Assembly (NCBI RefSeq): GCF_007997285.1
Contig: NZ_VORX01000004.1
Coordinates: forward strand, 62,001 to 126,000
Direction: 5' to 3'
Source: Gelidibacter salicanalis
GTDB taxonomy: Bacteria; Bacteroidota; Bacteroidia; Flavobacteriales; Flavobacteriaceae
DNA: 64,000 nucleotides
Both the position numbers and the translations under genes were made by a program. Below are positions 48,341-56,808 of this stretch, piece by piece. The notes beneath the pieces are model-generated. The model was not told the origin of the DNA. It saw only the letters and a program-made list of their open reading frames with translations, and did not search any database. Positions within the stretch are counted from its first letter, which is position 1; every line of letters starts with the position of its first letter.

Positions 48341-49189
48341 TTAGTTACAATCCTGACTGCATAATTGCTGCACCTCATTCAATACCCGATCTATCTTACT
48401 ATCCGATAAACCGATGTTTACTAATTTTTCCTTGCCGTTAAATAATTCCTTTACCAATATCACGTCAGATTCTATGAGGAGATGCTTTTCCCGTTTGTTT
48501 AACGTTGTTAGGGTGGTTACGGGGTAAAGCGCTAAGGAGTCGATATTGGCCTTTAGTCCATTGTCTTTTGGGTAATCCCAACTGAGCATGGTCAAACCCA
48601 CACATTTTCCGTAGTTGACGGCATCTGCGGTAAATCGGGTATTGGTCACCAGCCAGCCTTGTTTTAAATGAGACGTGTTTTTGGAGTTGGCATTCCACTG
48701 TTCTTGAATGTCTAAAAACCTCGAATTAATATATAAGGGTATTTTTACATTGCTAGTGGCCCTAGCATCGGAATGGAATTTACACTCAATGGTATACACG
48801 TTGCCATCTTTTTCTGCTAGGACATCAATTTCATGTGTGACACATGCACCAGCTAAGGTTACACTCACTTTGGTGTCATAGCCTTTCTCTTTTAATAAAG
48901 CGCCGATCAATCTTTCAAACGGATAGCCGGTGGGCCCCAGTTCTAAGATAGCGCGTTTTAAACTGTAGCGCGAGGCAGTGCTTTTATGTTTACCCTTTAA
49001 GATACTAAAGGCTTTTCTATATATGGTGTTAGAAGACATGCCGTCATAAATTTGGCTTTGAATTTTTTCGACAATGGTCTCGACCATTTCTTGGTTGGCA
49101 CCGGCTGATCGCAAAGATCTTCTAAGTTTTTCAAAGGAAAATAATTCCGTTTCTCCGTTACTTTTTTTAATATATACTTGGTGTTCCAT
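48341..49189 (-). CDS. ATP-cone / Mrr-type restriction endonuclease-like fusion
   Basis: A 282-residue protein. Residues 4-90 form an ATP-cone domain (VYIKKSNGETELFSFEKLRRSLRSAG, then a helical TIYRKAFSILK...RYSLKRAIL), the nucleotide-sensing module best known from ribonucleotide reductase. Residues 95-205 form a PD-(D/E)XK nuclease core: HEIDVLAEKDGNVYTIECKFHSDA gives D, E and K at typical spacing. The C-terminus ends in a helical hairpin-like stretch. It could be an ATP- or dATP-controlled nuclease in DNA repair or defence. The gene is alone, flanked by unrelated genes. Confidence 0.78.
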   Translation of the reverse strand: MEHQVYIKKSNGETELFSFEKLRRSLRSAGANQEMVETIVEKIQSQIYDGMSSNTIYRKAFSILKGKHKSTASRYSLKRAILELGPTGYPFERLIGALLKEKGYDTKVSVTLAGACVTHEIDVLAEKDGNVYTIECKFHSDARATSNVKIPLYINSRFLDIQEQWNANSKNTSHLKQGWLVTNTRFTADAVNYGKCVGLTMLSWDYPKDNGLKANIDSLALYPVTTLTTLNKREKHLLIESDVILVKELFNGKEKLVNIGLSDSKIDRVLNEVQQLCSQDCN

Positions 49190-49310
49190 AGGTTGTTAAA
49201 TATGTTGAAATCTGATAATTTTGAAAAGTGTTGCTTAGGTTTGCTAGATGTTAGCACAACTCTGGTTTTCATTTTAATTGCCCCCTAAATATAGAAGATT
49301 TATAACAGTT

Positions 49311-50432
49311 TTAGGTGGTTTTTTTATAACTCCATACTGCCAAACCATTCATGAGAATAGCGTATACCAAGGTTTTGATGAGTTGCGGTAGTATATCTAA
49401 AAACCCGGAACCTTTGAGCATCACCATCCGCATCACTTCTACGTAATACTTAATGGGATTGAATTCGGTCATTAGCTGCGCCCATTTTGGCATGCTTTCA
49501 ATTGGTGTAAATAGCCCACTCATCAAAATAAAAATCACCATAAAAAACCAAGCAATAAACATGGCTTGTTGCTGGGTGTCGGTGAAATTTGAGATAAATA
49601 GTCCAATGCCTAATACCACTAAAATGTAAATTGAGGTGTAAAGGTAGAGCAGTAGTAAACTGCCCAGCATTGGGATGTTAAAAATGAGTTTCGCGATGAT
49701 CAGTCCGATGCTCAATAATGCCATTCCAATTGCCCAAAACGGAAAGAGTTTTCCAATTATGAATTGACTTTTCTTTATGGGCGTAACATTAATCTGCTCC
49801 AAAGTCCCTATTTCTTTTTCCCGCACAATATTCATTCCCGAAAGGAAAAGGGTAATCATGGTGACTAATAAGACCAAAATTCCCGGGACCATGAAAGTTT
49901 TGTAATTTAAGGTTTCATTATACCAGAATAATGGAATGGTCTCAATCATGACCGGTTGAATCTGAGCATCGGAAATTTGAGATAAATCTATTATAATAGA
50001 CTGATTATAGCTTTGGACGATTTGTGAGATATAAACATTTTCCACCCCTGCAGCAGCGCCGTCAATGGCATTAATCGTAACGCCTAATGTATGGTGTTGT
50101 TCTGTTTGTAAGTCGCGCGCAAATTGTTGGGGAATTTCCATGACGACATCAACTTCACCTCGCAACATGGCGGCGCCTGCTCGTATTTGCGTAGGATAAG
50201 CTTGCAGCACATTAAAATAAGTGGACGCTCCGAATTTTTCGATTAGTGCCCGCGAGGTCGCGCTGCGATCGTTATCAATATAGCCGAACTTAATATTCTT
50301 GACCTCAAAGGTGGCGGCATTGGAAAGTATTACCAGTTGGAGTAGGGGCAATATAAAAATGATAGGAAGCATACCCTTATTTCTAAAGATTTGCTTGAAC
50401 TCTTTTTGTATGATGTAAAGGATTGTTTTCAT
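49311..50432 (-). CDS. ABC-2 type exporter permease (YbhR-like)
   Basis: A 373-residue permease: one N-terminal helix (about residues 20-40), a large extracytoplasmic domain (about 40-170), then five helices from about residue 180 on, typical of ABC-2 permeases (LVTMITLFLSGMNIVREKEIGTLEQINVTPI). It is the last gene of the exporter operon and pairs with the permease at 50593-51699 to form a heterodimeric channel. It probably exports drugs or lipophilic compounds together with the HlyD and TolC proteins. Confidence 0.92.
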   Translation of the reverse strand: MKTILYIIQKEFKQIFRNKGMLPIIFILPLLQLVILSNAATFEVKNIKFGYIDNDRSATSRALIEKFGASTYFNVLQAYPTQIRAGAAMLRGEVDVVMEIPQQFARDLQTEQHHTLGVTINAIDGAAAGVENVYISQIVQSYNQSIIIDLSQISDAQIQPVMIETIPLFWYNETLNYKTFMVPGILVLLVTMITLFLSGMNIVREKEIGTLEQINVTPIKKSQFIIGKLFPFWAIGMALLSIGLIIAKLIFNIPMLGSLLLLYLYTSIYILVVLGIGLFISNFTDTQQQAMFIAWFFMVIFILMSGLFTPIESMPKWAQLMTEFNPIKYYVEVMRMVMLKGSGFLDILPQLIKTLVYAILMNGLAVWSYKKTT

Positions 50433-50435
50433 AAT

Positions 50436-50460
50436 ATTCCCGCAAAGGCGGAAATCTCTT
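50436..50460. repeat. REP-like palindrome, copy 1
   Basis: ATTCCCGCAAAGGCGGAAAT followed by CTCTT. It forms a small imperfect hairpin (TTCC/GGAA) and closely matches copy 2 at 51705-51729. Both sit immediately upstream of a permease start codon. Such TCCCGC...GCGGGA-type elements are common in Flavobacteriaceae intergenic DNA. Confidence 0.6.
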
Positions 50461-50534
50461 TTTTAATTATTAATACCTTAAAACTTCACCACTGCCCGAT
50501 AGCTATCAATCCCAACTAATTTAATTTTTTATCG

Positions 50535-50590
50535 CTTACTGCCTACTGCTTACTGCCTACTGCCTACTGCCTACTGCGGACTGCCTACTA
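50535..50590. repeat. Tandem array of eight 7-bp units
   Basis: Eight contiguous units with core CCTACTG. The second, fourth, fifth and sixth units read CCTACTG, the first and third CTTACTG, the seventh CGGACTG and the eighth CCTACTA. The array ends 2 bp before the stop codon of the upstream permease gene (50593). Copy number may vary between strains. Confidence 0.85.
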
Positions 50591-50592
50591 TT

Positions 50593-51699
50593 TCACTCCA
50601 ATCGTATTTTATACTTCTTCACACTCAACGCAATAAAAAATACCGTCATTCCCAATAAAATCAAGGTTTCTTTCCATATAAACTCTAAGCCTACACCTTT
50701 CAGCATAATGGCTTTTAAAATGATGATAAACCATTTGGCGGGGATAATGTTACTTAAAATTTGAAGCGGCATTGGCATGCTGGAAATGGGGAAAATAAAT
50801 CCGGACAATAAGATCACGGGCAGCATCAATCCCATTAATGAAATCATCATTGCGGTTTGCTGTGTGGCGGAAATTGTGGATATTAAAATGCCTAAAGCGA
50901 GTGAAGTGATGATAAAAAGCACACTCTCCAATCCTAATAGCAAAAGACTGCCTTGAATGGGCATATTTAAAATAAAAATGCTCAACATGACAATTACAAT
51001 GGCATTAATAATGGATAGGAAAATATAGGGAATCACTTTTCCGATAATCACTTGAAAAGGTTTTAAAGGCGACACCAACAAGATTTCCATCGTGCCTAAC
51101 TCTTTTTCTCTGGTAATCGAAATAGAGGTCATCATTGCCGAAACTAACATCAGAATAATGGTCATTACGCCGGGGACAAACATGTACACACTCTTAAGTT
51201 CAGGATTGTAAACCATGCGGGTTTGTGGGATTATTTGATAAGCCACGTGGACGTCTTTATTCAGCTCTTTTTGATAGTGCTGAAGAATGGCATTAACATA
51301 ATTGGTAATTGTATTTGCCGTATTTGGGTCCGTGGCATCCGTAATTATTTGGATGGTAGCCTTGTTTTCTTTAATAAGGTTTTTACTGAAATTTCTTTCA
51401 AAATTTAGAACCGCTTTTACGTTTCCTTTTTCAAATACAGAGGCGATATCCGCTTCGCGAGTGACCATTTGTTTGATGCTAAAATACTTTGAAGCCGCAA
51501 TTCTGTTGATGATTTCCTCTGTTGTGGTATCTTTAGATGTGTTTAAAATGGCGATATCCACATTGTTGATTTCATTGGTAATGGCAAATCCAAACAGTAA
51601 AATTTGGGCAATAGGCATCCCGAAGAGAATAAACAAGGAGCGTCTATCCCTAAAAATGTGGTAGAATTCTTTTTTTATGAAGCCTATAAATCTTTTCAT
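50593..51699 (-). CDS. ABC-2 type exporter permease (YbhS-like)
   Basis: A 368-residue permease of the same layout as its neighbour: an N-terminal helix, an extracytoplasmic domain of about 130 residues, then five transmembrane helices beginning with FVPGVMTIILMLVSAMMTS and the coupling segment REKELGTMEILLVSPLKPFQ. Together with the permease at 49311-50432 it forms the membrane part of the exporter. The start codon lies just 5 bp from REP-like copy 2, and the stop codon is 2 bp from the 7-bp array. Confidence 0.92.
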   Translation of the reverse strand: MKRFIGFIKKEFYHIFRDRRSLFILFGMPIAQILLFGFAITNEINNVDIAILNTSKDTTTEEIINRIAASKYFSIKQMVTREADIASVFEKGNVKAVLNFERNFSKNLIKENKATIQIITDATDPNTANTITNYVNAILQHYQKELNKDVHVAYQIIPQTRMVYNPELKSVYMFVPGVMTIILMLVSAMMTSISITREKELGTMEILLVSPLKPFQVIIGKVIPYIFLSIINAIVIVMLSIFILNMPIQGSLLLLGLESVLFIITSLALGILISTISATQQTAMMISLMGLMLPVILLSGFIFPISSMPMPLQILSNIIPAKWFIIILKAIMLKGVGLEFIWKETLILLGMTVFFIALSVKKYKIRLE

Positions 51700-51704
51700 C
51701 GTAA

Positions 51705-51729
51705 GTCCCTGCGAAGGGAGGGATCTCTT
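51705..51729. repeat. REP-like palindrome, copy 2
   Basis: GTCCCTGCGAAGGGAGGGAT followed by CTCTT. Same layout as copy 1 at 50436-50460, with identical CTCTT ends, and the same position relative to a permease start codon. Confidence 0.6.
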
Positions 51730-51751
51730 ATTAAATTCTTAATTTTATATT

Positions 51752-52317
51752 TCCCGCAGATGACGCTGATTTGCGCAGACGGAGAAGTATGCTGGTGGCG
51801 TTCTTTTTTCAACGAGTATTTATATTATCAGACGAATCTTATAATCCGTTTACTTTTCTAAAAATCCCTTCCGTTATATTATCAACATTAAAGTTGACTA
51901 AAATTCCGAGTTTTAAGCCAGTTAGTTTTAAATAGGTCAAAATTTGTTTATGATGTACTTTCTCTATTTTTTCTACGGATTTGATTGCAATTATAACTTT
52001 ATTATTAACTAACACATCCAGTCTAAAGCCAATTTGCAATTTTACATCTTCATAAATAATTGGTAGAGGAACTTGTCGTTTAATGGATAATCTTTGTTTT
52101 TGTAACTCGAAACATAGAACAGCTTCATAGACTGATTCTAATAGACCTGGACCTAATTCATTATACACCTTGAAAATGGCTCCTCTAATGATATATGAAA
52201 TATCATTTTCTGATTTTGATTCCATAATTATTAACTTTTTAAGGTTCTCCCGAAATTACTCCGGTTTCTTTATAGACTATCTTTTTATTTCCGCGTAAAT
52301 CCGCGAAATCTGCGGGA
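51752..52317. mobile_element. 566-bp element with terminal inverted repeats around a GxxExxY gene
   Basis: The ends are TCCCGCAGAT (51752-51761) and its complement ATCTGCGGGA (52308-52317). The inverted match extends inward to 30 bp with 23 identities (51752-51781 against the complement of 52288-52317). The only gene inside is GxxExxY. The element fills almost the whole gap between an ABC ATPase stop codon (52326) and a permease start codon (51699), within the exporter operon. No transposase is present and no clear target duplication was found, so a mobile origin is an inference. Confidence 0.55.
51839..52225 (-). CDS. GxxExxY protein (PDDEXK_3-like fold)
   Basis: A 128-residue protein with the defining GPGLLESVYE motif near residues 24-33. 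Then FRLDVLVNNKVIIAIKSVEKI contains the PD-(D/E)XK-like core, where most family members have D, then E-x-K; here the residue before IK is alanine (codon at 51986-51988), so the nuclease motif appears broken. The last third, TYLKLTGLKLGILVNFNV, is also family-typical. The family is widespread and unassigned. It sits between inverted repeats in an exporter operon and is transcribed in the same direction. Confidence 0.9.
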   Translation of the reverse strand: MESKSENDISYIIRGAIFKVYNELGPGLLESVYEAVLCFELQKQRLSIKRQVPLPIIYEDVKLQIGFRLDVLVNNKVIIAIKSVEKIEKVHHKQILTYLKLTGLKLGILVNFNVDNITEGIFRKVNGL

Positions 52318-52325
52318 TTATTTTT

Positions 52326-53054
52326 CTACCCGCGAGCCAACTTTAAAAACACATCATTCATGCTCTCCGCCTGAAACTGTTCTTTAAGTTTTTTTGGCGT
52401 ATCCAACGCTTCAATTTTTCCATTCACCATGATAGAAACACGATCGCAATATTCGGCTTCATCCATATAGTGTGTAGTTACAAAAATGGTTGTGCCTTGG
52501 TGGGCTGCTTTATAAATCATTTCCCAAAACTGACGTCTGGTAATTGGGTCAACGCCTCCTGTAGGTTCATCTAAAAACACAATTTTAGGATCGTGAAACA
52601 AGGACACTGAAAAGGAAAGTTTCTGTTTCCAACCTAGAGGCAATGCGCCAACCAATTGATTCGCAACATTTTCAAGACCAAGCTCCTGAATTAAAGCCTC
52701 TGATTTTTCTTTAATTCGTTTTCGGGTCAAGCCATATATACCTCCAAAAAAGTTGATATTTTCTTTCACGGTTAAATCGTCATACAAGGCAAACTTCTGA
52801 CTCATATACCCGATATTTTTTTTAATGTCCTCAGCCTGAGTATACACATCAAATCCCGCCACGGTAGCACGACCAGAGCTTGGATGCGATATTCCAATTA
52901 GCATTTTCATGGCTGTGGTTTTTCCGGCACCGTTAGCGCCCAAGAACCCAAAGATTTCTCCTTTTTTAACCTCAAATGAGATGGCATTTACAGCTGCAAA
53001 ATCACCAAACATTTTGGTTAAACCTTCAACTTTTATGACTTCGTCATGGCTCAT
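52326..53054 (-). CDS. Exporter ABC ATPase 2 (YbhF C-half-like)
   Basis: A 242-residue ATPase: Walker A GANGAGKTT near residue 40, Q-loop MSQKF, Walker B KIVFLDEPTGGVD near residue 162. The signature reads LPLGWKQKLSF instead of LSGGQ, matching what I recall of the C-terminal half of E. coli YbhF. With ATPase 1 it would form an asymmetric pair. The GxxExxY element follows 9 bp after its stop codon. Confidence 0.9.
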   Translation of the reverse strand: MSHDEVIKVEGLTKMFGDFAAVNAISFEVKKGEIFGFLGANGAGKTTAMKMLIGISHPSSGRATVAGFDVYTQAEDIKKNIGYMSQKFALYDDLTVKENINFFGGIYGLTRKRIKEKSEALIQELGLENVANQLVGALPLGWKQKLSFSVSLFHDPKIVFLDEPTGGVDPITRRQFWEMIYKAAHQGTTIFVTTHYMDEAEYCDRVSIMVNGKIEALDTPKKLKEQFQAESMNDVFLKLARG

Positions 53055-53125
53055 TTTTTAGTGAATTTTGTTTCATCGGCTTAGCAGATTTGTGTTGTGG
53101 TTTTTAACTGCGTTCAAATTGATTT

Positions 53126-54028
53126 TTATGTTGATAATTCCATAAAGCTGTCTTCAATGGTAGCCTCTGTTCTTTCAATTTGAATATCGGATAAGGTCTT
53201 AGATTCTAAATAAACTTTTAAATCTTCCGGATTAAAATCGGAGCGAGTGTCCGTGTAATGTACAAACTCGCCAAAAGGGTAAACACTATGGTGGTGTTCA
53301 TAGGTTTTTAAACTTGTGATCAGCTGGTACATATTTGTTGACCGTACGTTATATAGAGACGTTGGATAATGTTTTACTATCGCTTCTGGCGTGTCTATCT
53401 GCAAAATTTTACCATCTTGGATTAAAGCAACGCGATCACACAAAGCGGCCTCATCCATATAAGGGGTGGAAACTAAAATGGTAATCCCTTTTTGTTGCAA
53501 ACGCTTTAGCATTTCCCAGAATTCCTTTCTCGAAACCGGGTCGACACCTGTAGTGGGCTCGTCTAAAAACAATACTTTAGGCTTGTGGATCAAGGCACAG
53601 CTCAACGCTAGCTTTTGTTTCATACCACCCGATAATTTACCTGCACGACGGTCTTTAAAAGGTTCAATTTGAATATAAATATCTTTAATCAAATTATAAT
53701 TTTCTTCGATAGTCGTTCCGAAAATTGTCGCAAAGAAATTCAAGTTTTCCTCCACCGTTAAATCGTGATAGAGTGAGAATTTGCCAGGCATATAACCTAC
53801 GCTATTCCTGATTTTTTTGTAATCTTTAACCACGTCAAATCCAGCCACAGTTGCGGTGCCCTGGTCAGGGAATAAGAGTGTGGTCAAAATTCTGAATAAG
53901 GTTGTTTTACCGGCACCATCAGGACCAATTATACCAAAAAGTTCATTCGGTTTCACCTCAAATGAAATGTCCTGCAAGGCTTTTGCATTCTTATAGGATT
54001 TTGATATGTTGGTGACGGAAATACCCAT
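53126..54028 (-). CDS. Exporter ABC ATPase 1 (YbhF N-half-like)
   Basis: A 300-residue ATPase with Walker A GPDGAGKTT near residue 34, signature LSGGMKQKLALS near residue 136 and Walker B VLFLDEPTTGVD. A C-terminal extension of about 70 residues (YNVRSTNMYQLITSL) follows the core domain. It corresponds to the first half of YbhF, which in E. coli is one protein. Its start codon abuts the stop codon of the upstream lipoprotein gene without any gap, implying translational coupling. Confidence 0.92.
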   Translation of the reverse strand: MGISVTNISKSYKNAKALQDISFEVKPNELFGIIGPDGAGKTTLFRILTTLLFPDQGTATVAGFDVVKDYKKIRNSVGYMPGKFSLYHDLTVEENLNFFATIFGTTIEENYNLIKDIYIQIEPFKDRRAGKLSGGMKQKLALSCALIHKPKVLFLDEPTTGVDPVSRKEFWEMLKRLQQKGITILVSTPYMDEAALCDRVALIQDGKILQIDTPEAIVKHYPTSLYNVRSTNMYQLITSLKTYEHHHSVYPFGEFVHYTDTRSDFNPEDLKVYLESKTLSDIQIERTEATIEDSFMELST

Positions 54029-54523
54029 TTATTTGAAATATATTGAATACGCATTGATGTTCTCCTCAATACTCAATTTGAGTTTAGAAGCATCTTCAAC
54101 CGTTTCTACTTTGGAAAGCGCCGCAATTTTTTCAATTAAAGGATGTAACCAAACGTGCAAATTGTCATGGGACGGGCCTACCATTGTGCAATTTTTAACC
54201 ACGTAGTTTTTATCTTCATTAAGATTTTCGGCCAATTTGTGATAATCTTCCAAACTGTTTGTGGTCTTGGCATAAAAGGTTTTTTGTAATTGTTTAACCC
54301 CTTCATTGGTGGTTACATCTGCTTGCCATTGCTCACCATTGTCCATTGCCATGTCTTTTGTCCAAGCATTACCATAGATATTGGAAGTGTCATCACTATG
54401 ACGTTTATCTGTGACCTCTAGGGCGTTTTCCACGGCATCGGAATGTACGGTGGTTTCTGAAGTTTTACGGTCTTTACAGCCTACGATGGTCAAAAGACCA
54501 AGTACGAAAATTAAATGTTTCAT
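54029..54523 (-). CDS. Unknown lipoprotein within the exporter operon
   Basis: A 164-residue lipoprotein (lipobox IVGC, Cys16). I do not recognise its family. The mature chain is polar and helical, with WTKDMAMDNGEQWQADVTTNEGVKQLQ, then an FYAKTTNSLEDYHKLAENLNEDKNYVVKNCTMVGPSHDNLHVWLHPLIEKI segment that looks conserved (CTMxGPxHDxLHxWL). It lies between the HlyD gene (29 bp upstream) and ATPase 1 (zero gap), so it may be an accessory periplasmic or outer-membrane subunit of the exporter, or a metal-response protein given the Cys-His pattern. Confidence 0.75.
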   Translation of the reverse strand: MKHLIFVLGLLTIVGCKDRKTSETTVHSDAVENALEVTDKRHSDDTSNIYGNAWTKDMAMDNGEQWQADVTTNEGVKQLQKTFYAKTTNSLEDYHKLAENLNEDKNYVVKNCTMVGPSHDNLHVWLHPLIEKIAALSKVETVEDASKLKLSIEENINAYSIYFK

Positions 54524-54552
54524 TGTTTTTGTTTTTTAGACGTTATAATGTA

Positions 54553-55455
54553 TTAATAAGTATTCGAATTGTTGAGCCATAGTTCAGCAGGCATACCAAT
54601 TTTTAGGCTTCCGTCATTAGTAACGTCCACTTTAACAGCATATACCAGTGCCACGCGTTCTTCTTTGGTTTGAATGATTTTTGGAGTAAACTCCGCTACC
54701 GAAGCAATCCAGCTGATTTTTCCTTTGTAAGATTTCATAGTATCAGCATCGTCAATTTTAATGGTGACGTCCTGCCCAATGTTAATGTTTGCTAACTGAT
54801 TTTCACTAATATAGACTCTTAATTGCATACTGCCTAAATCGGCAATTTTATACAATGGCCGACCAAAAGAGGTGATTTCCCCAGGTTCTGAATATTTGGT
54901 TAACACAGTTCCGTTGATCGGATTTATAATTTTACTTTTCTGAATCTGGTCATCAATTTGTTTGAGTTGTATATCTATACTTTTCAATTCATTGACTACA
55001 GGCGCATTCTGGATTTCCACACTGCGAATTTGATTATGTAGAACCTCTATTTCGCCTTGAACATCATCCAATTGTTTTTGCGTGCCTGCATTATCCTTAA
55101 ACAAATTTTCAGAACGGCTTTTGTTAGTGTTGGCGGTTTTTAATTTTGCGTTTAAAACATTAATTTGAGACAAGACGCCTTTAGATTTTGAACTAATGAC
55201 CTCTTTGGATACGAACAATTGTTCACGTTTTAAAGCCAAAGGAATGGTATCAATATAGCCAAGAAATTGGTCCTTGATAAGTTGATCTCCTTCATTGACC
55301 TCAAACTGTATCAGTTTTCCGTTGTTTTCAGCAGAAACAGTTATTTCTGTCGCTTCAAAATTGCCATAGCCATCTGCTTTTCCGTTGGAATTGTCGCAGG
55401 AACATAGAATAGTTGCTGCTAGGCTTAAACTGATTATGTAATTATAGTATGTCAT
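54553..55455 (-). CDS. HlyD family adaptor lipoprotein (YbhG-like)
   Basis: A 300-residue periplasmic adaptor with a lipoprotein signal (lipobox LCSC, Cys20). Residues 30-70 form the first half of the lipoyl domain (SAENNGKLIQFEVNEGDQLIKDQ). A coiled-coil hairpin spans about residues 78-165. The second half of the lipoyl domain contains IINPINGTVLTKYSEPGEIT. It bridges the inner-membrane permeases to the TolC protein encoded upstream. The MITE-like sequence lies between these two genes. Confidence 0.92.
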   Translation of the reverse strand: MTYYNYIISLSLAATILCSCDNSNGKADGYGNFEATEITVSAENNGKLIQFEVNEGDQLIKDQFLGYIDTIPLALKREQLFVSKEVISSKSKGVLSQINVLNAKLKTANTNKSRSENLFKDNAGTQKQLDDVQGEIEVLHNQIRSVEIQNAPVVNELKSIDIQLKQIDDQIQKSKIINPINGTVLTKYSEPGEITSFGRPLYKIADLGSMQLRVYISENQLANINIGQDVTIKIDDADTMKSYKGKISWIASVAEFTPKIIQTKEERVALVYAVKVDVTNDGSLKIGMPAELWLNNSNTY

Positions 55456-55470
55456 GCTATAGGTGTTTGT

Positions 55471-55552
55471 TCCCCGCTGATTTCGCTGATTTTCGCAGAA
55501 TTGTTTTTGATATGTTCTCCATCATCTTCGTTTATCCATGCTATCTGCGGGA
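55471..55552. repeat. 82-bp MITE-like sequence
   Basis: The left end is CCCCGCTGATTTCGCTGATT plus TTCGCAGAA, and the right end is ATCTGCGGGA (55543-55552). These match the left repeat (TCCCGCAGAT-type) and the right repeat of the 51752-52317 element, but no gene lies between them. It occupies nearly the whole gap between the HlyD start (55455) and the TolC stop (55558). Likely a non-autonomous or decayed relative. Confidence 0.55.
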
Positions 55553-55557
55553 GGTAA

Positions 55558-56808
55558 TTAATGTCCTTTAATAACATTGTAATTTGCTTTTGCCAATTGT
55601 AAATGAATTTTATGTTTGATTAAATTATGTTCATCCTCATATAAATGAGTCAGTTCAGTAAAATATGCCGATGAGGTAATGACCCCGTTTTTGAGTTGAG
55701 CATCGGCAGATTTGAGCACTTCTTTGCGAAGGTTGATAATCTCAAGATCAGAGGTGATAAACTCTTCAAACTTTGCAATCTCATTGTACTGCTGATTCAG
55801 TTTAGTAGCTGTGTCTAAATTGAAAATTTCAGTTTCGGTATCTAAAATGTCCTTGTGGATGGCAATGGCTTCACGTTCCTTTTTATTAGAATTCCAATCA
55901 AAGACGTTCCAATTTAATTTCACACCCACGATATAAAATGCTTGGAAGGAATTATCTAGCATATTCAATCCGGGATTGCCGTAACCACCAGTTGCAAAGC
56001 CCAATAGTTTGGGTGAATTCTGTATTGCAATTAAATCCTCGTTGCTCTCAATCTCCGCTTTTTTGAGCTGAAACAGATCTAATTCTGGTCGATTTAATTG
56101 GGATGTAAATTCTGTGTCTATCAAAGTGTTTAAAAATGTTGAGGCAGCATCTAAAGGTTGCCCAATAATACGCGATAAGCTGTTCACTAAAGTTGCTTTA
56201 TTGCTCTGTAGACCTTTCTGTTGTTGGCTTATTTTTAGTAATTCTACTCTCAAAACCTTATCTGAAGCAGGCAAAAGTACACCATTGCTGATGCCTGAGG
56301 TCACTTCGTTCAATTTAGAATTCAGTAAAGTTTGTTTGGCATCTAGTAATAATTCTGTTTCCTGTGCCAATAAAATAGAGAAATAGAGTTGGTTGATTTT
56401 TTGTTTGAGTTGATATAGCTGGACTTCAACTTGTTTTTGCTTGGTTTCTAGTTGGGATGATTTCACCTCTAGAATCGCATTGGTGGCGCCACCATTATAG
56501 ATGAGTTGGTTTACGGATACAGTGGCACGATATTGATCTTTATTAATAGGGTCTAGCGATGCGTTTGGAATAGGGACTTCAATCACATCCGATTGGTAGG
56601 TGGCTTGTGCATCAAAACTTAATTGAGGGAGTCTTGCTGTAGAAACAACTTCTTGCTCCAAATGGTTTTGAGCTTTGAGTAAGGTTATTTGTTTTGCTAA
56701 AGGGTAATTCACAGAAGTTAACTCATAACATTCCTGTAGTGTTACTGTGTTTTGCGACACCAGAGTAGTTGCCATTAATCCAACGAGTATAAACAGTAAC
56801 CGTTTCAT
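55558..56808 (-). CDS. TolC family outer-membrane channel
   Basis: A 416-residue outer membrane factor with a signal peptide (about residues 1-18). Two repeated helical halves, beginning VTLQECYELTSVNYPLAKQITLLKAQNHLE and the second near NRPELDLFQLKKAEIESNEDLIAIQ, match OEP-family proteins, with the closing YFTELTHLYEDEHNLIKHKIHLQLAKANY helices. It provides the exit duct for the exporter. The start codon is 4 bp downstream of the TetR stop codon, so regulator and channel are in one operon. Confidence 0.92.
   Translation of the reverse strand: MKRLLFILVGLMATTLVSQNTVTLQECYELTSVNYPLAKQITLLKAQNHLEQEVVSTARLPQLSFDAQATYQSDVIEVPIPNASLDPINKDQYRATVSVNQLIYNGGATNAILEVKSSQLETKQKQVEVQLYQLKQKINQLYFSILLAQETELLLDAKQTLLNSKLNEVTSGISNGVLLPASDKVLRVELLKISQQQKGLQSNKATLVNSLSRIIGQPLDAASTFLNTLIDTEFTSQLNRPELDLFQLKKAEIESNEDLIAIQNSPKLLGFATGGYGNPGLNMLDNSFQAFYIVGVKLNWNVFDWNSNKKEREAIAIHKDILDTETEIFNLDTATKLNQQYNEIAKFEEFITSDLEIINLRKEVLKSADAQLKNGVITSSAYFTELTHLYEDEHNLIKHKIHLQLAKANYNVIKGH

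Follow-up and report, generated by a model that had tools for sequence, protein, structure and literature searches.

As described in the part of PMC2817692 considered here, the RAYT gene is flanked by two inverted REPs with which it co-evolves, and REPs without the gene are found between genes. Perfect REP copies number from 37 to 427 per genome in the same part of that paper. In Coxiella, according to the portion of PMC4990558 drawn on here, the 23S rRNA intervening sequence (IVS) is 428 nt in length, is called selfish, carries an S23 ORF with tandem heptamer repeats ahead of it, and is excised by RNase III. TAACTGA heptamer direct repeats are reported in the section of PMC4679880 used here from Beggiatoaceae, Cyanobacteria, and some Bacteroidetes, mostly in intergenic positions; horizontal spread is suggested there with the remark that "no mechanism is evident", and the terms "four-helix" and "S23" have 0 occurrences in the text of that paper. 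For the GxxExxY family, the portion of PMC8934634 considered gives a passing mention of the domain next to a reverse transcriptase. In the open-licence full-text literature, no role assignment for GxxExxY was found, the name "PDDEXK_3" was not found, and, among the titles and abstract openings listed, also for array strings, none was found to describe the pairing of GxxExxY genes with inverted arrays.

The window, that is, the whole stretch of DNA that was analysed, is a 64-kb piece of the 3.78-Mb genome of Gelidibacter salicanalis, and the closest named relatives of its GxxExxY gene are those of Gelidibacter. The features of the ABC exporter operon in which this gene lies are given below in window coordinates.

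50537 to 50589, no strand: tandem array of the 7-bp unit TACTGCC (7.6 copies) between the two permease genes
50593 to 51699, minus strand: ABC-2 permease gene, downstream of the unit
51752 to 52317, minus strand: whole unit, 566 bp, from arm pairing and predicted RNA fold
51752 to 51779, no strand: gene-downstream arm TCCCGCAGATGACGCTGATTTGCGCAGA
51839 to 52225, minus strand: GxxExxY gene, 128 aa, PD-(D/E)XK nuclease family, from profile searches and predicted structure
52290 to 52317, no strand: gene-upstream arm, minus-strand reading TCCCGCAGATTTCGCGGATTTACGCGGA, with units CGCAGAT, CGCGGAT, and CGCGGA
52326 to 53054, minus strand: ATPase gene of the ABC exporter, upstream of the unit
55473 to 55552, no strand: gene-less unit of the same repeat type as the window unit, extent by eye

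The preliminary description had placed here a 566-bp segment with imperfect terminal inverted repeats and one internal GxxExxY gene in the operon's direction, filling nearly the whole gap, and this layout was confirmed. The two arms are 28 nt each, lie 510 nt apart, and are 82% complementary (23/28), which agrees with the 23 of 30 positions given earlier when two mismatching bases are added. The gene (PF13366/TIGR04256) is on the minus strand, like the ATPase and permease genes. Between the ATPase stop and the permease start, the gap measures 626 bp, 566 bp of which are occupied by the unit, and the upstream arm starts 8 bp past the ATPase stop codon. In the predicted RNA fold of the unit, the two arms form the closing stem (z -2.5, with 0/100 shuffles as stable). 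When the same test was applied to 58 window genes, an inverted-repeat score of at least 18 was obtained for the GxxExxY gene alone, and a score of at least 15 for 4 of the 58, the GxxExxY gene among them. A pattern derived from the arms, written after the arms had been seen, gave 3 matches with up to 3 mismatches in the 64-kb window versus a mean of 0.00 in 100 shuffles. These matches are both arms and the gene-less unit (at 55474), which consists of the arm CCCGCTGATTTCGCTGATTTTCGCAGA, about 43 nt, and then ATCTGCGGGA, and which falls in the gap separating the HlyD-like gene of the window exporter operon from its OEP (TolC-like) gene. There was no Rfam match above the gathering score at 49000-56000. 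No transposase of a known transposon class was found inside the unit, where PF13366 is the sole domain in the gene. A further neighbour of the exporter operon, at 48341-49189 (minus strand), encodes an ATP-cone domain and an Mrr-type restriction endonuclease domain.

Likeness to the RAYT/REP system consists of a nuclease-type gene within inverted extragenic repeats, co-evolution of gene and repeat, and gene-less copies, and all of these are found in the GxxExxY unit. However, RAYT is an IS200/IS605-like tyrosine (HUH) enzyme, whereas GxxExxY belongs to the PD-(D/E)XK superfamily; a Transposase_17/HUH domain was not found in the window gene, only PF13366. A REP is an imperfect palindrome whose head is conserved, whereas the GxxExxY repeats are arrays of 9-10-bp units. 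REP copy numbers also exceed those of the GxxExxY arrays, for one type of which 2-24 matches (up to 3 mismatches) are seen per genus genome. Because the enzyme is unrelated, the GxxExxY unit is one that works like RAYT/REP and is not a member of it. The 23S rRNA IVS is similarly small with one small ORF, and S23-family loci share the inverted-array layout, but the protein and the array period are different, and the window unit lies between ABC genes and not in rRNA. With MITEs and small insertion sequences, the unit shares terminal inverted repeats and gene-less short forms; in contrast to them, it has no known transposase or clear target duplication, and its ends vary by clade. The TAACTGA heptamers are likewise short tandem arrays in mostly intergenic positions (PMC4679880, in the section used), but their 7-bp period is closer to that of the S23 arrays than to that of the GxxExxY arrays.

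The assignment of the window protein to its family is clear from profiles, with matches to PF13366 PDDEXK_3 (E 2.7e-40, 137.8 bits, curated cut-off 22) and to TIGR04256 GxxExxY (E 2.6e-41, 140.7 bits, curated cut-off 35). Among 183 copies, E30 is kept in 180, D70 in 182, E80 in 181, K82 in 182, and Q94 in 182. The last of these opens a conserved Q-x-x-x-Y with Y98, which is present in 173 of the 183; QxxxY is presumably the mark of the Cas4/RecB/lambda-exonuclease group. In the window copy, Glu80 is replaced by Ala (codon at 51986-51988, placed by eye), the sole Ala at this position among the 183 copies, and the catalytic D...E-x-K expected of an active PD-(D/E)XK enzyme is therefore incomplete in it. 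Since the catalytic Glu has been lost, the window copy, a PD-(D/E)XK member by profile, is probably inactive. Other altered copies are L068 (at D70) and L078 (at E80 and K82); both are without a detectable inverted repeat (score 11 in each), whereas the altered window copy has one.

The structure predicted for the GxxExxY protein has a mean pLDDT of 91.5. Its best Foldseek match is 4ic1 (SSO0001), which we take to be a Cas4, with E 9.8e-4, the sole value below 0.001, and a TM-score of 0.57 by query. Lambda exonuclease is next (E 2.7e-3, TM-score 0.46 by query), followed by the Wolbachia factor CinB (E 6.4e-3) and, lower, MGME1, RecE, and Holliday junction resolvase. For 4ic1 and lambda exonuclease, the TM-scores are moderate and the rmsd is large (14-17); the sequence profile of GxxExxY gets to 4ic1 only at E 0.54, and the GxxExxY protein has only about 125 aa. 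The predicted fold thus points to Cas4 and lambda exonuclease as the nearest folds, at moderate likeness, and with the conserved Q-x-x-x-Y, GxxExxY is probably a minimal PD-(D/E)XK nuclease of the RecB/Cas4/lambda-exonuclease group. At one locus (L208:298-2934, minus strand; G073:C9), a GxxExxY domain is fused to a complete RecQ helicase of DEAD, helicase C, zinc-binding, RQC, HRDC, and HTH_40 domains in a protein of 878 aa. Frames of RecQ-fusion length (883 aa) were also seen at GxxExxY matches at G101:C1:72354 and G085:C22:338277. Values of dN/dS range from 0.02 to 0.20 in 23 of 31 same-site pairs, these 23 being the computable ones. The conserved residues, dN/dS, the fold, and the RecQ fusion together suggest that the family encodes functional DNA nucleases, except for the probably inactive window copy. 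Strong purifying selection at fixed sites is as compatible with a host function as with a selfish one.

The pairing seen in the window is a general one. GxxExxY loci were drawn from a genus, family, phylum, and species collection, the phylum part being 100 fetched loci and those returned, among the matches listed; 183 distinct copies were scored, which are 186 minus those with less than 150 bp of flank. For the score, the 300 bp before the gene were aligned to the inverted 300 bp after it, with 15 as the threshold. A score of at least 15 was reached by 141/183 copies versus 164/1830 partner-swapped and 43/1830 shuffled ones, and a score of at least 18 by 111/183 versus 51/1830 and 5/1830, respectively; the other 42 of the 183 copies lie below 15, with no inverted repeat at this threshold. 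The preliminary suggestion that GxxExxY genes are generally paired with end repeats is borne out by these counts.

In 220 arms, the repeat unit recurs about every 9-10 bp. The core CRCNRAK, which was defined after the arms had been looked at, occurs 542 times in the arms versus 34.9 times in shuffled arms, with 274 spacings of 8-12 bp versus 0.25, while only 182/282 arms have two or more cores. It can be seen that the array unit is this core with a spacer of 2-3 bases, and that there are usually two to four units per arm. Between the two arms of a locus, the difference is 0.06-0.09 at four of the seven core positions and 0.16 and 0.20 at two more, versus 0.44-0.46 at the free core position and at spacer positions 1 and 2, and 0.37 at spacer position 3; the comparison conditions on one arm and may favour the core up to about twofold, and the contrast observed is five- to sevenfold. 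A conserved core beside a free spacer, as read from the aligned arms, fits what would be expected for recognition by a protein.

Positions and neighbours were obtained with a crude ORF caller for loci with a score of at least 15 only. The nearest upstream gene is co-stranded in 126/140, and there the arm starts a median of 8 bp after the stop; REP sequences likewise tend to sit close behind stop codons. Both neighbours are co-directional with the unit in 103/135. A shared flank stretch of at least 8 bases is found in 3.6% of 140 units versus 0.9% after swapping, a slight excess, and a clear target-site duplication, which was looked for at these 140 units, was not found. The unit is therefore probably not an ordinary transposon.

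Apart from the window locus, the Gelidibacter salicanalis genome has three further GxxExxY gene loci. Two of them carry arrays of other types, CACAGAG and CACTAAT/CACGAAT; at the third, which has GAT-type units in another arrangement, the gene is apparently broken, with two degraded pieces in tandem after it. One fixed end sequence was accordingly rejected, as GxxExxY genes do not all have the TCCCGCAGAT ends and other types exist in the same genome. Judged from the sequences compared, clade-specific arrays of one design are preferred over a fixed end sequence. The earlier question whether the same repeats flank other GxxExxY genes is thus answered positively for the design of the unit and not for a single end sequence, in place of which there are several types that track clades.

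The relation of array type to protein was examined across hosts; the covariation, pair-alignment, and neighbour counts refer to the 141 loci with a score of at least 15 only. Between host families, arm similarity is correlated with squared protein identity (r 0.417, 8307 pairs). Permuting arms among the loci of one genome lowers this to a mean of 0.18 (sd 0.025, 0/1000 as high as 0.417), and permuting them within the host family to 0.07. On a protein tree of 106/141 loci (34 of unclear type and 1 short protein left out), which has few columns and 45/102 inner branches unresolved, repeat type changes 11 times versus a shuffled mean of 47.2 (0/200 as low), and versus a mean of 42.8 and a minimum of 37 when shuffled within host family; types were assigned by a simple rule, apparently wrongly in a few cases (L149, L150). 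Host family on the same tree requires 51 changes versus a shuffled mean of 63.9 and a minimum of 58. Arrays and the GxxExxY protein change together, and repeat type tracks protein clade far more than host family.

The places occupied are also different. Among cross-family pairs with alike arms and both neighbours readable, 0/480 share a neighbour homologue. Of 309 cross-family alike-arm alignments, 29 begin and end no further than 15 bp from the outer arm edges. Overruns of over 40 bp beyond an arm were seen in 15 on the 5' side and in 7 on the 3' side, and many alignments terminate before reaching the arms, over 60 bp short in 159 (5') and 130 (3'). Cross-family pairs of any type extending more than 60 bp past an arm number 57, and the 20 listed are 16 from tandem loci and 4 with L032. 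Because no pair shares a neighbour and alignments seldom pass the arms, the locations of the unit in different host families are unrelated to one another. The preliminary idea of a small element without its own transposase agrees with these unrelated places across families and with the lack of a known transposase, while an ordinary transposon it probably is not.

At the scale of the genus, the window operon gap holds the gene in 3 of 9 genomes (its own included) and lacks it in 6; five of the six gene-less gaps hold a one-sided CTCTGTG array, which is another type. In a second gap, between genes read from their sequences as Sua5/TsaC-like and CCA tRNA nucleotidyltransferase-like, the unit is intact in 2/9 genomes and left as remnants with one or both ends in 2/9, and 5/9 are without the GxxExxY gene and carry another short repeat. 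These five gaps (L223-L226, L228) show an AATTCCA-type repeat and its inverted counterpart. More widely, the gene is present in 14/41 family-sample genomes and in at least 59/118 phylum-sample genomes. The upstream neighbour of the window copy is common to eight other loci of its repeat type, six of which share both neighbours, and homology runs through both flanks in several same-gap loci, including Aequorivita, Xanthomarina, and Subsaximicrobium records. A simple recent insertion at the window operon is ruled out by the same gap being filled in other genera. The insertion is therefore old, older than the genera Aequorivita, Xanthomarina, and Subsaximicrobium, and for the six genus genomes without the gene, loss or replacement is at least as likely as gain. 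Strains with an empty gap, which had been called for earlier, do exist in the sense that the gene is absent from 6/9 genus genomes, but they may be losses from an old site. Of the outcomes named beforehand as contrary to the proposal, neither ends unconserved around other GxxExxY genes nor presence in all relatives was found outright.

Recent dispersal was not seen among the fetched copies, in which within-genome pairs more than 90% identical occur only inside one locus each. A protein query from a different locus of this genome gave matches in 8/72,556 plasmid records and 0/50,697 phage records; with the window alignment as query, the viral contigs gave 1 relative at 32% identity. Six of the eight plasmid records were scored, with at least 15 in L280, L284, and L285, and with 14 (array on one side), 12, and 13 in L281, L282, and L283. 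In L281, a Sphingomonas replicon, the GxxExxY gene lies between fabD and fabG and has an array on the upstream side only.

Arrays without the gene are common in the genus. The pattern CCCGCAGATTTCGCAGATTT, with up to 3 mismatches, has 127 matches in the 9 genus genomes, 2 to 24 in each, versus 3 for the reversed-pattern control in the same genomes; a few of these are arms of GxxExxY loci, and others are tandem series. When 20 solo-array regions were fetched, no relative of the window protein was found in them (best tblastn E 0.78), and the array pattern was in one orientation in 15, in both in 4, and in none in 1. Tandem series of about 118 bp (L229, G004:C18:25400-27000) and about 187 bp (L230, G005:C1:650800-652100) have two array types side by side in the repeated unit. 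Array matches are also present 3.3-4.6 kb upstream of the permease in 6/8 other genus genomes (G001, G002, G005-G008). Genome G006 has 22 array matches, yet a single GxxExxY gene, which is of AG type.

The TIGR02436 family (S23, four-helix bundle) was chosen as an intended negative control, and 30 loci (L250-L279) were taken from a longer list, of which 3 at contig edges were dropped. S23 genes were found between inverted short-period arrays in 20/27 at score 15 versus 18/270 after swapping, and the autocorrelation of 40 arms shows a sharp period of 7 bp (0.59 vs 0.30). Not all S23 arms are 7-bp arrays, as that of L258 looks to be of AG type. Specificity of the layout to GxxExxY was thereby rejected. 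Since S23 genes encode no nuclease and have the same layout, the requirement of a nuclease for this layout is weakened. From the equal period, the TACTGCC array of the window (50537-50589) would be related to the S23-flanking arrays.

From these findings, we infer that the GxxExxY protein acts on its arrays, and we consider it fairly probable that the unit is RAYT/REP-like with an unrelated enzyme, a PD-(D/E)XK nuclease gene lying between inverted arrays of ten-base units on which its product acts. The segment in the window would then be one copy of a small heritable unit that is mobile over evolutionary time. The GxxExxY protein would bind the units of its own array and cut or trim DNA there, probably with the inverted arms folded into a hairpin or single-stranded, and such cutting could allow copies of the unit, or of arrays without the gene, to enter intergenic gaps. 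The system would work as RAYT does with its REPs by means of an unrelated enzyme, and the window copy, with its catalytic Glu lost and probably inactive, would persist by descent. The earlier alternative that GxxExxY rides on or helps to move the element can be sharpened in this respect, as the nuclease fold makes the protein a candidate for the acting enzyme itself and not only a rider. Several points count against this explanation: co-inheritance of linked DNA would alone yield covariation of protein and repeat, and many array matches are present where the matching gene was not found (G006). The S23 layout, the slight excess only of shared flank bases, the lack of recent dispersal among the fetched copies, the 42 copies below the threshold, the arms with fewer than two cores, the age of the window insertion and its Glu-to-Ala change, and a purifying selection that suits a host function equally well also weigh against it. 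A broader proposal, which we hold only tentatively and as somewhat doubtful, is an unrecognised class of very small bacterial elements bounded by repeats, with at least two unrelated founders, the Cas4/RecB-like GxxExxY with inverted arrays of units of about 10 bp and S23 with inverted arrays of 7-bp units, each of which would read its own units and spread them, whether or not its gene goes along, into gaps directly behind stop codons.

The arrays might instead be recognised by other trans-acting or host machinery, with GxxExxY as cargo, that is, a rider, an anti-loss gene, or a gene useful to the host. The identical layout around the unrelated TIGR02436 family makes the layout independent of the nuclease and speaks for this, as do solo arrays in genomes without the matching gene. 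However, one shared machinery would predict neither the different periods of the GxxExxY (9-10 bp) and S23 (7 bp) arrays nor the tracking of clade by type within GxxExxY, and we regard the cargo explanation as rather unlikely. Still less probable, in our estimation, is an effect at the RNA level, in which the arms would pair in the operon mRNA and RNase III processing would uncouple the cassette, the nuclease being a separate matter. The closing stem predicted for the window unit and the mostly co-directional neighbours agree with it, and there is the S23 parallel of the Coxiella IVS, cut out with its S23 ORF by RNase III (PMC4990558, in the portion drawn on). Yet arm-to-arm mismatches are not evenly spread and fall on the spacers and the free position, which fits sequence recognition better than pairing, and three quarters of the solo regions (15/20) have the array in one orientation only. 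Finally, unrelated intergenic repeats could pile up by coincidence in the same gaps as GxxExxY genes, and such gaps do attract repeats, as the gene-less genus genomes mostly carry other arrays in them; but flank pairing is locus-specific, the swap control having fallen short of it, type follows protein across families, and some far relatives are alike exactly arm to arm. Coincidence appears very improbable.

If the preferred explanation holds and the GxxExxY protein acts on its arrays, the two would form a counterpart to RAYT/REP, a repeat-associated nuclease system of different chemistry. The widespread GxxExxY family gains a testable setting, comprising a cognate DNA array per clade, conserved catalytic residues, and a RecQ fusion, and through the S23 layout the finding is linked to the 23S rRNA intervening sequences and to the heptamer arrays. 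If the class with two or more founders exists, it would account for the patchy, multi-copy occurrence of the GxxExxY and S23 families and also for how arrays of short units, the TAACTGA heptamers for example, arose.
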